In this document: positions 44,173 to 51,616 of the stretch, one piece after another
Layout: each line of letters opens with the position of its first letter
Position numbering within the stretch: position 1 is the first letter of the stretch
NCBI GenBank assembly: GCA_018816945.1
Contig: JAHIVC010000070.1
Coordinates: 1 to 64,000 of the forward strand
Origin: Bacteroidota bacterium
GTDB lineage: Bacteria; Bacteroidota; Bacteroidia; Bacteroidales; GCA-2711565
DNA: 64,000 bases
Direction: 5' to 3'
Translations under genes and position numbers: made by a program
The notes under the pieces: generated by a model
Told to the model about the DNA's origin: nothing
What the model saw: the letters and a program-made list of their open reading frames with translations, nothing else
Database searches by the model: none

Positions 44173-45174
44173 TTATTTAAAGTTCATAAGTAAACCTATG
44201 AGATCAACCACTCTGTTTGAGTAACCCCACTCATTGTCATACCACATAAGTGTCTTGACGATTCGCTTACCCAAAACCCGGGTATATTCCGGGTCATAAA
44301 TGCTGGAATACAAATTACCAACAATATCGGATGATACATATTTTTCTTCACCATAAAACAAAACATTTTTCATCTCTTTTGTTTTTGAGGCAGCAAGCAC
44401 GGCCGCATTCACTTCTTCCACGGTTACATCTCTTTCAACTTCGAACACAAAGTCAACGATAGAACCATCAGGGACCGGAACACGACATGCCATCCCATCC
44501 AATCTTCCCTTAAGTTCAGGAATCACTTTGCCAACAGCTTTTGCAGCACCGGTTGTAGTTGGAATAATATTTTCTGCAGCAGCCCTACCACGACGCCAGT
44601 CGGCATGAGGAACATCAGCCAATCGTTGATCATTTGTATAAGCGTGCGTTGTGGTCATGATCCCTTCAACAATGCCAAATGCTTCGTGCATGACTTTTGC
44701 CATTGGTGCCAAACAGTTTGTTGTGCAACTGGCATTTGAAATGATGCGATGCTCAGGTTTTAGCCCTCCATCGTTTACCCCAATTACAATCGTATAATCA
44801 ATTTCATCTTTGGCAGGCACTGTAAGAATTACTCTTTTGGCTCCTGCATTTATGTGAGGCATCAATTTTTCACGGGTCCTAAAAATTCCGGTAGCTTCGA
44901 TCACAACATCTATTTTTAACTCGGCCCATGGTAATTGATTTGGGTCTTTAATACTCAGCATCCTTACCTTTTCATTCGGTGTGATCAAATAGTCATCTTC
45001 TAACCTGATATCCTGTCCGAAACCCATCATCACCGTATCATATTTCAATAAATAGGCCAGCACCTCATTATCGTACAAATCATTAATAGCAACAACATCA
45101 ATATCATCACGACTATTAATTATCCTGAAAACAGATCTTCCGATTCTGCCAAAACCGTTTATCGCAACTCTCAT
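44173..45174 (-). CDS. gapA: Type I glyceraldehyde-3-phosphate dehydrogenase
   Basis: Glycolytic and gluconeogenic enzyme, cytoplasmic tetramer. The 333 residues have the NAD motif INGFGRIGRSVFR, SNASCTTNC with catalytic Cys150, TTTHAYTNDQ with His177, the phosphate site TTTGAAKAVG, and RVPVPDGSIVD. All catalytic residues are present. The start overlaps the stop of the upstream paralogue by 4 bases (ATGA), so both are made from one mRNA. Confidence 0.96.
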   Translation of the reverse strand: MRVAINGFGRIGRSVFRIINSRDDIDVVAINDLYDNEVLAYLLKYDTVMMGFGQDIRLEDDYLITPNEKVRMLSIKDPNQLPWAELKIDVVIEATGIFRTREKLMPHINAGAKRVILTVPAKDEIDYTIVIGVNDGGLKPEHRIISNASCTTNCLAPMAKVMHEAFGIVEGIMTTTHAYTNDQRLADVPHADWRRGRAAAENIIPTTTGAAKAVGKVIPELKGRLDGMACRVPVPDGSIVDFVFEVERDVTVEEVNAAVLAASKTKEMKNVLFYGEEKYVSSDIVGNLYSSIYDPEYTRVLGKRIVKTLMWYDNEWGYSNRVVDLIGLLMNFK

Positions 45175-46187
45175 AATGCACCTCCTTCTGAATTTAATTT
45201 ATCGTAAGCTATGATTAAATCAATAATCCTCGCCGACATTGCCTTAGCTGCATGATACCAGGTAAGCGTTTTTATCATCCTACCTGAAGATTTAATGCTT
45301 GCATCCCGATCAAATACGACAGAATGTGCATTACCGATAACATCGGTACTAACGATGGGATCATGCATCATCTCCACAATTTCAGGATGTTGATCCGCAT
45401 ATTTTTGAACAGCAATATTGATCATCTCAATGGTGATATCTTTCGATTTAAAAATAGCAGTCAAATCTAATAATGAACCACTAGGTACAGGCACATTTAA
45501 AGCCGAGCCCTCTATCCTACCCTTAAATTCGGGCATGATTTTCTGAATCCATTCGGGCGAAGGTGTTTCATTAGGAATTATATTTTCAGCAGCTGACCGG
45601 CTTCGCCTAAAATCTGTACCTGCTTTATCACGTAAGGGCTGATCAGAAGTGTACGAATGAACTGTTGTGAGCATGGCATAATCAACCCCAAATTCATCGT
45701 TGAAGATTTTAAGAAGAATTGCTGCAGCATTGGTGGTTGCAGAACCTGCCGAAATTAATTTATCGGTATTTTGAATGGTGTTTTCATTTACCCCAATCAC
45801 AACAACGCGATCAATTTCATTTGTTGGCAAATTTGATAAGATTACACGTTTGGCCCCGGCCTGATGATGCTTTTCCATAAATTCGCGTGATTTATACTTG
45901 CCAGTCCCGTCAACGACTACATCAACATTAAAAATATCCCATGGAATATCCCCCGGCTCTCCTCCCATTACAATTCTGGCCCTTCCGTTTTTTGAAACAA
46001 GGAAATTTCCATCCAACTTCACATCAATCCCGCCTTTGGTTTCAGCTACCAATAAATAATGCAGTATTTCGGCACGACCAATATCAGCGATCGCGACAAT
46101 TTCAATATCATTTCGGTTAAGACATAATCGATAGATATGCCTTGGGATTTCCCCGAATCCCATTAACCCAACCCGTATTTTAGTCAT
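45171..46187 (-). CDS. GAPDH-like protein lacking the catalytic cysteine
   Basis: A full-length GAPDH paralogue of 338 residues that aligns without gaps to GapA over the active site. The catalytic position reads SAGSATTNA, with Ala at 150 where GapA has Cys150; His177 is kept (VHSYTSDQ). The dinucleotide loop is GFGEIP instead of GFGRIG. The phosphate-site TGAAK reads TPSPE, and the CRVPV arginine is replaced (LNVPV). The frame is intact, so this is not simple decay. It may be a regulatory or tetramer-partner subunit of GapA, or bind another ligand. It precedes gapA in the same operon. Confidence 0.85.
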   Translation of the reverse strand: MTKIRVGLMGFGEIPRHIYRLCLNRNDIEIVAIADIGRAEILHYLLVAETKGGIDVKLDGNFLVSKNGRARIVMGGEPGDIPWDIFNVDVVVDGTGKYKSREFMEKHHQAGAKRVILSNLPTNEIDRVVVIGVNENTIQNTDKLISAGSATTNAAAILLKIFNDEFGVDYAMLTTVHSYTSDQPLRDKAGTDFRRSRSAAENIIPNETPSPEWIQKIMPEFKGRIEGSALNVPVPSGSLLDLTAIFKSKDITIEMINIAVQKYADQHPEIVEMMHDPIVSTDVIGNAHSVVFDRDASIKSSGRMIKTLTWYHAAKAMSARIIDLIIAYDKLNSEGGAL

Positions 46188-48270: not shown

Positions 48271-48301
48271 CTGTAACAAATGGGATAGCATCTTCGTCAT
48301 A
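48271..48301 (+). promoter_or_regulatory. ECF-type promoter before the sigma gene
   Basis: CTGTAACAAAT (48271-48281), 13 bases, CGTCATA (48295-48301). GTAAC and CGTC are the -35/-10 cores typical of ECF sigma factors. The identical arrangement occurs at 49942-49972, so the sigma factor probably transcribes its own gene. Confidence 0.8.
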
Positions 48302-48327
48302 TCATTGAGAAATACAAAACCAATTGG

Positions 48328-48813
48328 ATGACGGTATCTGAGTACAATACTTGTGTGGACAAACATTCGGATGGTGTTTATCGTTTTATTCTTAAAAATA
48401 TTAAGGATAGCGATAAAGCAAAGGATATTGTGCAGGAATCGTTTGTACGCTTATGGGACAGAGTTTCGGAAGTAAAATTTGAAAAAGCGAAATCCTACTT
48501 ATTTACCATCGCTTATCATTGTTTTATCGATACAATTCGTAAAGATAAACGTACTGTATCAATGGAGGATGCAATTGTTAATAATCATTCTGAAATGAAT
48601 GCTTTTTCTGATCATAAGGAAGTCATCAATGAAGCCGTGGAAAAGCTTCCTGAAATTCAGAAATCTGTTATTCTTTTAAGGGATTATGAAGGTTACTCCT
48701 ATAAAGAAATAGGTGAAATAACCGAATTAAGTGAAGCTCAGGTTAAGGTATATATTTATCGCGCACGCTTATTCTTAAAGAATTACCTGGTAAGTTTGGA
48801 TGTTGTAATTTAG
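48328..48813 (+). CDS. ECF-family RNA polymerase sigma factor
   Basis: Group 4 sigma factor of 161 residues. Region 2 is visible as KAKDIVQESFVRLWDRV and KSYLFTIAYHCFIDTIRKD, region 4 as LPEIQKSVILLRDYEGYSYKEIGEI with the recognition helix SEAQVKVYIYRARLFLKNYL. It lies 7 bases before the gene of a membrane protein with an anti-sigma-like layout, and behind a promoter identical to that of the GIN/barrel gene two positions down. The inducing signal is unknown, probably at the envelope. Confidence 0.92.
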   Translation: MTVSEYNTCVDKHSDGVYRFILKNIKDSDKAKDIVQESFVRLWDRVSEVKFEKAKSYLFTIAYHCFIDTIRKDKRTVSMEDAIVNNHSEMNAFSDHKEVINEAVEKLPEIQKSVILLRDYEGYSYKEIGEITELSEAQVKVYIYRARLFLKNYLVSLDVVI

Positions 48814-48820
48814 AATTAAG

Positions 48821-49933
48821 ATGAAGATCGACCGAAACAATTACGAACAATATTTTATCGACCATTTCGACGGACGATTAGATGCTTCATTATTAAAAGA
48901 GCTTAAGGAATTTTTACTTAAAAATCCGGATCTGAACGAAGAATTTGAAAGCTTTGAGATGATCAACATTAATGTTGGAGATCAGTATAATTATGCTGAC
49001 AAAGCATCATTGAAGAAACCAATTATTCATTCAACAAATCAAATTAATTCTGAAAATTACGACGATTACTTTATTGCAGGCAATGAGGGCGATTTAACAT
49101 CAGCTGAAATGGCAGAAGTAGCATCTTTCATCCACCTAAATCCATCACTTGAAACGGAGTTTAAGATTTATGGTTATGCACGTGTAAGCCCTGATCAATC
49201 GATCGTTTTTGCAAATAAGTCCGGCTTAAAAAAATATCCATTCTTATCTATAAAAACGTGGTATAAACCCATCGGAATTGCAGCAAGTATTATTTTATTG
49301 ATCGGTATTTTCAATATATTAAGGCCTACTCAAGTGAAAACACCGTCTTTTGAAAGGGCTGAAGTTCCTTCCTTAATGAAAAGCAATGGAATTCAATCAA
49401 TTCAACAAGATTATCAGTATCCTTCAATAACTAAAAGAGAATACCAAATAGCTGTTACTCATTTTGAAGAAGTAATCCCGACAGAAATTCTATTAAAAAT
49501 TCCTGTATCGGGTATTCCTATAGCAACTTATTTTGCTTCATTGGGCAATCCCATAAAGCCAGCCGAAAAGTTATCCTTTAAATACGAATATGATTATTTG
49601 GTAAAAGAATTGATGATTAAAGAAGAACTCTTATTGGCATCATTTGGCGAAACCAACCCATCCTCAGCAAAAAAGGTCAAAAAATCACTATGGGCCAACA
49701 CTTTTGGAAAACTGCATCGAAAAAATTCGCGATCAGAAGATGTTGGAGATGAAACTAAAAAATCAAAAATAAATTTGTGGACAATTGCCAGTATTGGAAT
49801 CGAGAGTTTCAATGAAATGACCGGATCGAACGTAAATATTGAACGAAAACTCAATAAAGAAGGTGAAAAAAACAAATACATCCTTGTAAATGCGAATGCT
49901 AACATTACAACTACCGATAATCAAAATCATTAA
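48821..49933 (+). CDS. Putative membrane-bound anti-sigma factor
   Basis: A protein of 370 residues with one membrane helix (about 149-167). The cytoplasmic part is an internal duplication: residues 7-67 and 79-139 share NYxxYFI, a helix, FLLKNPDL / FIHLNPSL, and DKASLKKP / NKSGLKKYP at a constant 72-residue offset. The part beyond the membrane (about 170-370) is unrecognised. Position directly after an ECF sigma gene and single-pass topology suggest it holds the sigma factor at the membrane. No zinc motif is seen. The function is inferred from context. Confidence 0.65.
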   Translation: MKIDRNNYEQYFIDHFDGRLDASLLKELKEFLLKNPDLNEEFESFEMININVGDQYNYADKASLKKPIIHSTNQINSENYDDYFIAGNEGDLTSAEMAEVASFIHLNPSLETEFKIYGYARVSPDQSIVFANKSGLKKYPFLSIKTWYKPIGIAASIILLIGIFNILRPTQVKTPSFERAEVPSLMKSNGIQSIQQDYQYPSITKREYQIAVTHFEEVIPTEILLKIPVSGIPIATYFASLGNPIKPAEKLSFKYEYDYLVKELMIKEELLLASFGETNPSSAKKVKKSLWANTFGKLHRKNSRSEDVGDETKKSKINLWTIASIGIESFNEMTGSNVNIERKLNKEGEKNKYILVNANANITTTDNQNH

Positions 49934-49941
49934 TTTGTTAC

Positions 49942-49972
49942 CTGTAACAAATCCGGGCATGGTTCCGTCATA
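49942..49972 (+). promoter_or_regulatory. ECF-type promoter before the GIN/barrel gene
   Basis: CTGTAACAAAT (49942-49952), 13 bases, CGTCATA (49966-49972), identical in both boxes and in spacing to the site before the sigma gene. Confidence 0.8.
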
Positions 49973-50004: not shown

Positions 50005-51567
50005 ATGAAAACGCAAAATATTTTAAAAGTCACCTTCAGCATATTAATGATAGCTGGTTTGATATCCCCTGCTTCTGCACAGCAAATAAGAAATGTAGAA
50101 ACGGTGAAAGAAAACAGAATAACTGAATCCTTCAACAAAATTGAGGTAGAAAATAACATTAATGTTTTTCTTGAACAAGGAGAAGAAATAAAAGTGGTTA
50201 TTGAAACAAGCCGTGAGTTCCAAAATGCAGTTCAAGCCAATGTCGTAAATGGCATATTGACATTGAGCACAAATTCGACACAAAAAGTGAATATATTAAA
50301 TGCCTATATCACTACTCCTAAAATTCAGGAAATTACACTAAACGGCAATGCAAACCTGAAATCAAAAGGAATCATTGAGCAATATAAATTGGTATTGATA
50401 ACTTATGGAACATCAATGATTTCAATGGATATCGAAGTTGAAGACTTAACTACTGAATTACACGGTGCATCCGAAATTATTTTAAATGGGAAAGCTGTTA
50501 ACCACGAGGCTTTATTGCAAGGTGCCTCAATTTTAATTACCAGTAAAATGCTGAATGAGAACACAAGCATCGAAACGAATGGGAGTTCGAAAGCATTCGT
50601 TAATACTGCTAATAAGCTCGACATCACTTCGAATGCAAGCAGTAAAGTTGAGTACGAAAATATACCAAATAACGTAAGCCGCCAAAATACGGACCGAGTT
50701 TATAAAGAATACTCCCTGGATGTTGATAATCGTAATAACACAAAAATTAACTTAGGTAATCTGGACATGCGTTTTAGCGACTCTCGCGATTCAACCTATG
50801 TGAGGTTGGGACGTCATTCGTTTATTGTAGATGAATATGGAAATGCCCGTTATCGCAGAGCTTACCGTGACCGATTCAACAGTAATTGGGCCGGTCTTTT
50901 AATGGGAATCAATGGATATCTTACTCCGGATCATGATTTAAATTTCCCACCAGAATATGACTATTTAGAACTTAATCTTGCAAAATCAATTCGATTCGAC
51001 ATTAATATTTTTGAACAAAATGTTCCACTCACAAGAAACAATCATCTTGGAATGGCCACCGGATTAGGATTTGAAATTCGAAGTTATCAATTTGAAAAAA
51101 ATGTAAGTCTTATTGCTGAAGAACCGCAAATTGCAGGATTTTACAATGAAGGTGTTTATGTGAGCAAGAGTAAATTAGCCGTCACCTATTTAAATCTCCC
51201 AATTATTTTGGAATATCAAACCAATGGCTATAGCAATAGAAATAGTTTTCATATTTCTGCCGGGATGGTTTTTGGTTTAAGAATAGGATCGCACACCAAA
51301 ATAAAATTTGAAGAAAAAAACAAAGAGTATTCTTTGATTGATCCGGTAAGTGGCGAGGTTTACGATGAAAGAACTTCTCCTAACCGATCACGTATTAAAG
51401 AATTTGGTGCATTCCATTTAAATCCATTTAAAGTTGATGCAATGTTTACTATAGGTTGGGGTTGGGTAAATCTTTATGCAACTTATTCGCTCACTACCTT
51501 ATTTAAAGAAGGACAGGGTCCTGAACTTTACCCGGTTTCAATTGGTATTTCTCTGCTGAAGTGGTAA
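50005..51567 (+). CDS. GIN-domain (DUF2807-like) protein fused to an outer-membrane barrel
   Basis: Secreted protein of 520 residues. The signal peptide ends near ISPASAQ (26). Residues about 30-230 form a parallel beta-solenoid of the DUF2807/GIN type (FNKIEVENNINVFLEQGEE, ITLNGNANLKSKGI, ELHGASEIILNGKA). Residues about 320-520 alternate like a small outer-membrane barrel (FHISAGMVFGLRIGSH, FKVDAMFTIGWGWVNLYATY) and end in LLKW. GIN domains and barrels are usually separate; the fusion may be a surface sensor or adhesin. It is the likely main target of the adjacent ECF sigma factor. Confidence 0.75.
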   Translation: MKTQNILKVTFSILMIAGLISPASAQQIRNVETVKENRITESFNKIEVENNINVFLEQGEEIKVVIETSREFQNAVQANVVNGILTLSTNSTQKVNILNAYITTPKIQEITLNGNANLKSKGIIEQYKLVLITYGTSMISMDIEVEDLTTELHGASEIILNGKAVNHEALLQGASILITSKMLNENTSIETNGSSKAFVNTANKLDITSNASSKVEYENIPNNVSRQNTDRVYKEYSLDVDNRNNTKINLGNLDMRFSDSRDSTYVRLGRHSFIVDEYGNARYRRAYRDRFNSNWAGLLMGINGYLTPDHDLNFPPEYDYLELNLAKSIRFDINIFEQNVPLTRNNHLGMATGLGFEIRSYQFEKNVSLIAEEPQIAGFYNEGVYVSKSKLAVTYLNLPIILEYQTNGYSNRNSFHISAGMVFGLRIGSHTKIKFEEKNKEYSLIDPVSGEVYDERTSPNRSRIKEFGAFHLNPFKVDAMFTIGWGWVNLYATYSLTTLFKEGQGPELYPVSIGISLLKW

Positions 51568-51585
51568 AGTTTAACAATGATCATT

Positions 51586-51616
51586 GGAAAGCTTCTCTTT
51601 ACGGGGAAGCTTTTTT
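51586..51616 (+). terminator. Terminator of the ECF operon
   Basis: AAAGCTTC pairs with GGAAGCTTT around a short loop, followed by TTTTTT; it lies 20 bases after the stop codon. Confidence 0.8.

Follow-up and report, generated by a model that had tools for sequence, protein, structure and literature searches.

The window, by which we mean the whole stretch of 64,000 nucleotides that was analysed, comes from a Bacteroidota bacterium and carries two short sites with the same boxes and the same spacing, one in front of an ECF sigma factor gene and the other in front of a gene for a GIN-domain protein with an outer-membrane barrel. Two questions follow: (i) whether the sites are promoters read by the local sigma factor, in which case it would promote its own synthesis; and (ii) whether the pattern leads to further genes of the same regulon.

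Both sites lie on the + strand and match CTGTAACAAAT-N13-CGTCATA exactly; the first, at 48271-48301, reads CTGTAACAAATGGGATAGCATCTTCGTCATA and the second, at 49942-49972, reads CTGTAACAAATCCGGGCATGGTTCCGTCATA. An 11-base box and a 7-base box are identical between them, and the 13-base spacer is unconserved. The first-pass annotation had reported these identical boxes at identical spacing before the sigma and GIN/barrel genes, and its coordinates, strand and boxes are all correct. Allowing three mismatches brings up no other match in the window, and in the 4.14-Mb assembly the exact core is found in these two places only. Dinucleotide shuffles give a chance expectation of 0.03 for the pattern in the window, and two sites were present in 0 of 100 shuffles. 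A chance repeat without function would have to accommodate that figure as well as the conservation in genus and order described below, by which it is already refuted, and its probability is negligible. Because the spacer and flanks differ between the sites, the flanking sequences being unlike outside the boxes, the boxes cannot be put down to a (recent) duplication.

ECF promoters are laid out with AAC in the -35 element and CGT in the -10 element. For Flavobacterium, CGT is documented in PMC9723704, and the SigP motif suggested elsewhere (PMC4800418) differs from the TGTAAC/CGTC motif. The predicted ECF promoter of the sigma gene (P1, 48271-48301) has TGTAAC at 48272-48277 and CGTCATA at 48295-48301, with 26 bases between the end of the 3′ box and the ATG at 48328. 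Its predicted counterpart for the GIN/barrel gene (P2, 49942-49972) has TGTAAC at 49943-49948 and CGTCATA at 49966-49972, starts 8 bases past the stop codon of the intervening gene 2, and has its 3′ box end 32 bases before the GIN/barrel ATG at 50005.

The genes themselves are all on the + strand. The sigma gene (48328-48813, 161 amino acids) is followed by gene 2 (48821-49933, 370 amino acids), the product of which is a probable anti-sigma factor as judged from alignments and a structural model, and then by the gene for the 520-residue GIN-domain (DUF2807) protein with a C-terminal outer-membrane barrel (50005-51567). A terminator-like hairpin lies after the barrel gene at 51586-51615; alone it is weak, since two such sites were found in the stretch against 2.3 expected in shuffles. 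The same scan of the window found no terminator-like site between the operon genes, and a scan for sigma-70-type promoters, with fewer matches than in shuffles, was uninformative. That the barrel protein is made in excess of the operon is plausible, and fits a layout in which its gene has its own promoter and no terminator-like site separates the genes. Many loci share the gene order sigma, gene 2, barrel, yebC. Elsewhere in the window, at 44173-46187, two adjoining minus-strand genes (333 and 338 amino acids) both encode glyceraldehyde-3-phosphate dehydrogenase-like proteins, the second without the usual SCTTN motif.

The sigma factor is of the ECF sigma-70 kind: it is short, has regions 2 and 4 and no further regions, and scores over the curated Pfam and NCBIfam cut-offs (PF04542, 42.9 against 24; PF08281, 61.9 against 25.7; TIGR02937, 86.8 against 42.9). 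It aligns over its full length with the equivalog model NF058625 (the GFO_1088/PG0214 family) at 113.6 bits, below the cut-off of 130, and is thus a relative and not a member by the curated rule; all 20 orthologues scanned match that model at E <= 1e-20. A relative in the family is Porphyromonas gingivalis PG0214, apparently PGN_0319, one of the ECF genes that have been disrupted in that species (PMC4324044).

The arrangement is conserved well beyond this genome. Both sites are at the same places in all four sigma-bearing genomes of the genus, that is, the window genome and three others. The site pairs of the three others, each 27 bases from TGTAAC through CGTC, are TGTAACAAAT/TGTAACAAAT, TGTAACAAAA/TGTAACAAAA and TGTAACATTT/TGTAACATTT, and in genome G004 of the genus both sites have ATTT and both have CGTCCTA. 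Bases beyond TGTAAC and CGTC are common to the two sites in the window species and mostly in its genus. Outside the genus, across 38 loci, the two sites of a locus were no more alike in those bases than shuffled pairs (p = 0.37), so likeness within a genome was given no weight and was discarded as evidence of a common reader. Identity over all 18 bases is therefore a local feature, and order-wide only TGTAAC and CGTC-N-TA hold. The consensus across the order is TGTAAC-WWWW-N12/13-CGTC-N-TA, with an unconserved spacer and with a T-rich stretch after TGTAAC that is commoner at the sigma gene.

At E <= 1e-30 the sigma factor has orthologues in 176 of the 295 genomes sampled from the order, or about 60%. 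Among 81 loci, 74 have TGTAAC-N16/17-CGT no more than 120 bases upstream of the sigma start codon, the site ending 12 to 42 bases from it, whereas reverse-complement windows and windows at -520 to -400 gave 0 and shuffles averaged 0.03. Such a promoter, kept ahead of the sigma gene from one orthologue to the next, is one mark of an autoregulated ECF operon. In six of the remaining seven loci the expected position holds a slightly altered site, and the seventh (L243) has a site 189 bases upstream. In a second set of named records, which partly overlaps the first in genomes, the site is present in 46 of 47 loci; Marinifilum and Carboxylicivirga are examples of cultured relatives that have the locus. 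The gene after gene 2 is preceded by a site in 43 of 65 loci, and in 24 of 26 where that gene encodes 450-565 amino acids, the size of the GIN/barrel protein; the 22 without a site are mostly cases where the next gene encodes another protein. In three genomes (G099, G091 and G055) the barrel gene lies away from the sigma operon, and a GIN/barrel gene elsewhere carries the site. This conservation strongly supports the earlier proposal that the sigma factor would be positively autoregulated and would share its promoter type with the barrel gene.

An alternative is that TGTAAC and CGTC together form the binding site of some other DNA-binding regulator and do not make up a sigma promoter. An inverted repeat, ATTTGTTAC-CT-GTAACAAAT, does overlap the second -35 box (49933-49952) and is nearly kept in the nearest species, yet it is missing at the same site in genomes G003 and G004 and in other families, and was rejected as an operator. 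A constant spacing across a spacer of variable sequence, together with a constant distance from the ATG, is in keeping with a promoter, and a separate regulator is very improbable.

A second alternative, which we regard as unlikely, accepts the sites as ECF promoters but assigns them mainly to another ECF sigma factor, or to several with overlapping specificity, in which case the regulon that they define would not belong to the local sigma factor alone. The window genome has 17 sigma genes over the ECF model cut-off, and four of them (L039, L041, L043 and L046) share the TGTAAC -35; similar sites also occur in genomes that lack the local sigma factor, before other ECF genes and ABC/FtsX genes. 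Against this, the site tracks the local sigma gene throughout the order, CGTCVTA sites fall to the reversed-control rate in genomes without that gene, and the other ECF genes of the window genome have different -10 sequences: the local sigma gene alone among the 17 has TGTAAC with CGTC close upstream, and in the four named genes TGTAAC is followed by other sequences. Such a pattern would be expected from a general -35 element combined with a more specific -10 element. Roughly 40 bases upstream of its ATG, the gene for a longer, primary-type sigma factor of the same genome (L035, G000 C52:89655) carries TGTAAC-N16-CGTA. The local sigma factor does not have the motif to itself, because at least two other sigma genes of related genomes (L195 and L260, TGTAAC-N16/17-CGTC) carry it too, as do ABC/FtsX genes in genomes without the local sigma factor. 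At two loci of sigma-less genomes (L264 and L265) the motif stands before a gene for a small exported protein, with the gene of another ECF sigma factor next in line; nearly the same promoter, TGTAAC-N16-CGTCTTA, may serve a second ECF group.

With recognition by the local sigma factor as the preferred reading, we turn to the reach of the regulon. The first-pass annotation had offered the pattern as ready for genome searches, and this needs amendment. In its literal form the pattern retrieves only the two sites themselves, and with two mismatches it gives 35 matches in the genome against 51 for the reversed control; because these matches are below the control and fall mostly inside genes, it was dropped in favour of a relaxed core derived from relatives, which retrieves more sites. 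In the four genomes of the genus, TGTAACWWWN13-14CGTCNTA finds 16 sites against 0 in the reversed control, and the same pattern without the final NTA finds 41 against 13; nearly all of the latter sites that were examined are intergenic, each a short way 5′ of a gene with the same orientation. The pattern usable for searching is TGTAACWWW-N13/14-CGTCVTA. Sites of the CGTCTTA type, and some sites at ABC/FtsX genes, are equally frequent in sigma-less genomes.

Sites away from the operon are denser where the sigma factor is present. In a first set of genomes, unlinked sites numbered 34 in 85.8 Mb of sigma-bearing and 13 in 63.6 Mb of sigma-less sequence (p = 0.026); divided by the base after CGTC, a post hoc split made once the data had been seen, the counts were 26 versus 5 for A, C or G and 8 versus 8 for T. 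With CGTCVTA fixed beforehand, new genomes gave 18 sites in 132.9 Mb against 4 in 96.5 Mb (p = 0.017), a threefold higher density in sigma-bearing genomes, in a comparison where the genomes are non-independent, sigma-less means no match at E <= 1e-30, and contig fragmentation may have led a few sites of the operon itself to be counted as "unlinked". The rate in sigma-less genomes equals that of the reversed control.

In the window genome (G000), TGTAAC-N16/17-CGTC sites at C71:77129, C101:107157, C101:112385 and C99:336328 (loci L212, L217 and L215) stand before genes for MacB/FtsX permeases, a MacB-type ATPase and a TolC-HlyD pair, and further sites stand before genes for a DUF4097 protein, a DUF5686 protein and a beta-lactamase-fold protein. 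The TolC site is present in all four sigma-bearing genomes of the genus. A gene for a 415-residue exported protein without a family lies behind a site in the window genome and in G002, G003, G103 and G274; this family-less protein of 412-415 residues (IYGKVTTIDGDxYxGxIRWGTEEVFWFDxFN) recurs behind the motif in different families (L211, L237, L238 and the G002/G003 counterparts). Not all of the MacB/FtsX/ABC sites could be kept as targets of the local sigma factor, as ABC/FtsX genes have them in sigma-less genomes too (L259 and L366), and those genes may therefore answer to another ECF sigma factor. Outside the operon in sigma-bearing genomes, sites precede genes for DUF2807 proteins in eight Pfam-confirmed cases, and also genes for further barrels. 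At least one of the eight, L359, may represent the barrel gene of the operon itself, separated from it by a contig break. None of the sites examined in sigma-less genomes precedes a DUF2807 protein or a barrel. The regulon thus probably reaches unlinked GIN-domain and barrel genes. The description of the two sites as a regulon core holds for the operon and barrel gene and, to judge from site density, probably extends to the other GIN genes.

Gene 2 very probably encodes the anti-sigma factor, with a duplicated, putatively sigma-binding domain. The protein begins with two three-helix repeats (about residues 8-46 and 80-120) of the form NYExxFxDYxDGxLxxxExxELxxFLxxNPxLxxEF, followed by a single membrane helix at about 145-167 and a variable C-terminal part; the orthologue L087 has a third copy of the repeat. 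A model built with 43 sequences has a mean pLDDT of 70.9, with the repeats mostly above 80 and three helices in each, and only three strands in the C-terminal part. The protein contains no cysteine and so no Hx3Cx2C zinc motif. It had no match in a Pfam search, to a barrel or otherwise, and zf-HC2 was matched by 4 of 40 orthologues (best E 4.9e-5). Sequence search found no solved relatives; in structure comparisons of the model, Foldseek found none at E <= 0.001, and the best VIA-align Z was 4.6, to unrelated chains, so that these comparisons were uninformative. Class I anti-sigma domains are three-helix bundles with a fourth helix and may be zinc-free, and ASDI proteins likewise have an N-terminal three-helix bundle, a single membrane helix and a gene adjoining the ECF gene (PMC7406223). 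Gene 2 differs from them in its duplicated (in L087 triplicated) domain, the lack of cysteine and the lack of a family match.

The 520-residue protein belongs to the GIN/Toastrack group, with a DUF2807 (PF10988) score of 110.4 bits against a cut-off of 24.2, and matches OMP_b-brl_2 at 43.8 bits against 27. DUF2807 and DUF4097 have been unified as Toastrack and tied to membrane or envelope stress (PMC11237479), so envelope stress is the most likely signal here. Toastrack proteins (DUF2807/DUF4097/DUF2154) of the Lia and PSP systems are under LiaRS control or occur with PspA; here, DUF2807 and DUF4097 proteins are also found behind the site, but with an ECF-type promoter, and are barrel-fused or exported. 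EcfO-Reo and Das-Dma (ECF21) of Bacteroides also combine an ECF sigma factor adjoining a membrane anti-sigma factor with an outer-membrane barrel, and their proposed signal is envelope stress (PMC13088901, PMC13114119). In Reo and Dma, however, the anti-sigma factor itself carries the barrel, as its C-terminal domain, whereas here the barrel is encoded by a separate gene with its own promoter and comes with a GIN domain. Gene 2, at 370 residues and without a barrel match, is not a dual-membrane anti-sigma factor of the Dma/Reo type, and no fusion of gene 2 to a barrel was seen in the loci examined. Sigma factor, anti-sigma factor and barrel are all present as separate genes, which would work in the manner of a standard autoregulated ECF operon.

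We consider it highly probable that both sites are promoters of an autoregulated circuit of the local sigma factor, with gene 2 as control and the GIN/barrel protein as output. At rest, the membrane-anchored gene 2 product would hold the sigma factor through its N-terminal helical repeats, and an envelope signal would relieve this hold. RNA polymerase with the freed sigma factor would then read P1 and P2: transcription of its own operon from P1 would give positive feedback and raise the anti-sigma factor too, and the GIN/barrel protein would be made both by read-through and from P2. The same sigma factor probably drives other GIN/Toastrack and barrel genes elsewhere in the genome. A more elaborate scenario is a split Reo/Dma-type sensor, in which the duplicated-domain anti-sigma factor and the separate GIN/barrel protein signal jointly across the envelope, and the sigma factor re-silences itself by over-producing the barrel from P2 (homeostatic feedback); we hold this to be rather doubtful.

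Finally, the pairing of the two sites persists throughout an order of Bacteroidota, which makes a genuine self-reinforcing circuit, ordinary in type, very likely. The system is real and well conserved, an ordinary autoregulated ECF operon in a conserved and poorly characterised group, and the first-pass annotation was right about its main lines. It also gives a measure of the trust that a two-site motif from a single genome deserves: its core is upheld, and the extra identical bases fail. For the GIN/Toastrack outer-membrane proteins, the sites provide a concrete regulon hypothesis. Known ECF promoter motifs are few in Bacteroidota: for B. fragilis a study from 2020 cited one, that of EcfO, and for B. 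thetaiotaomicron it cited no motif of any ECF sigma factor (PMC7366714). The motif TGTAAC-WWWW-N12/13-CGTC-N-TA belongs to a sigma group that is widespread in the order.
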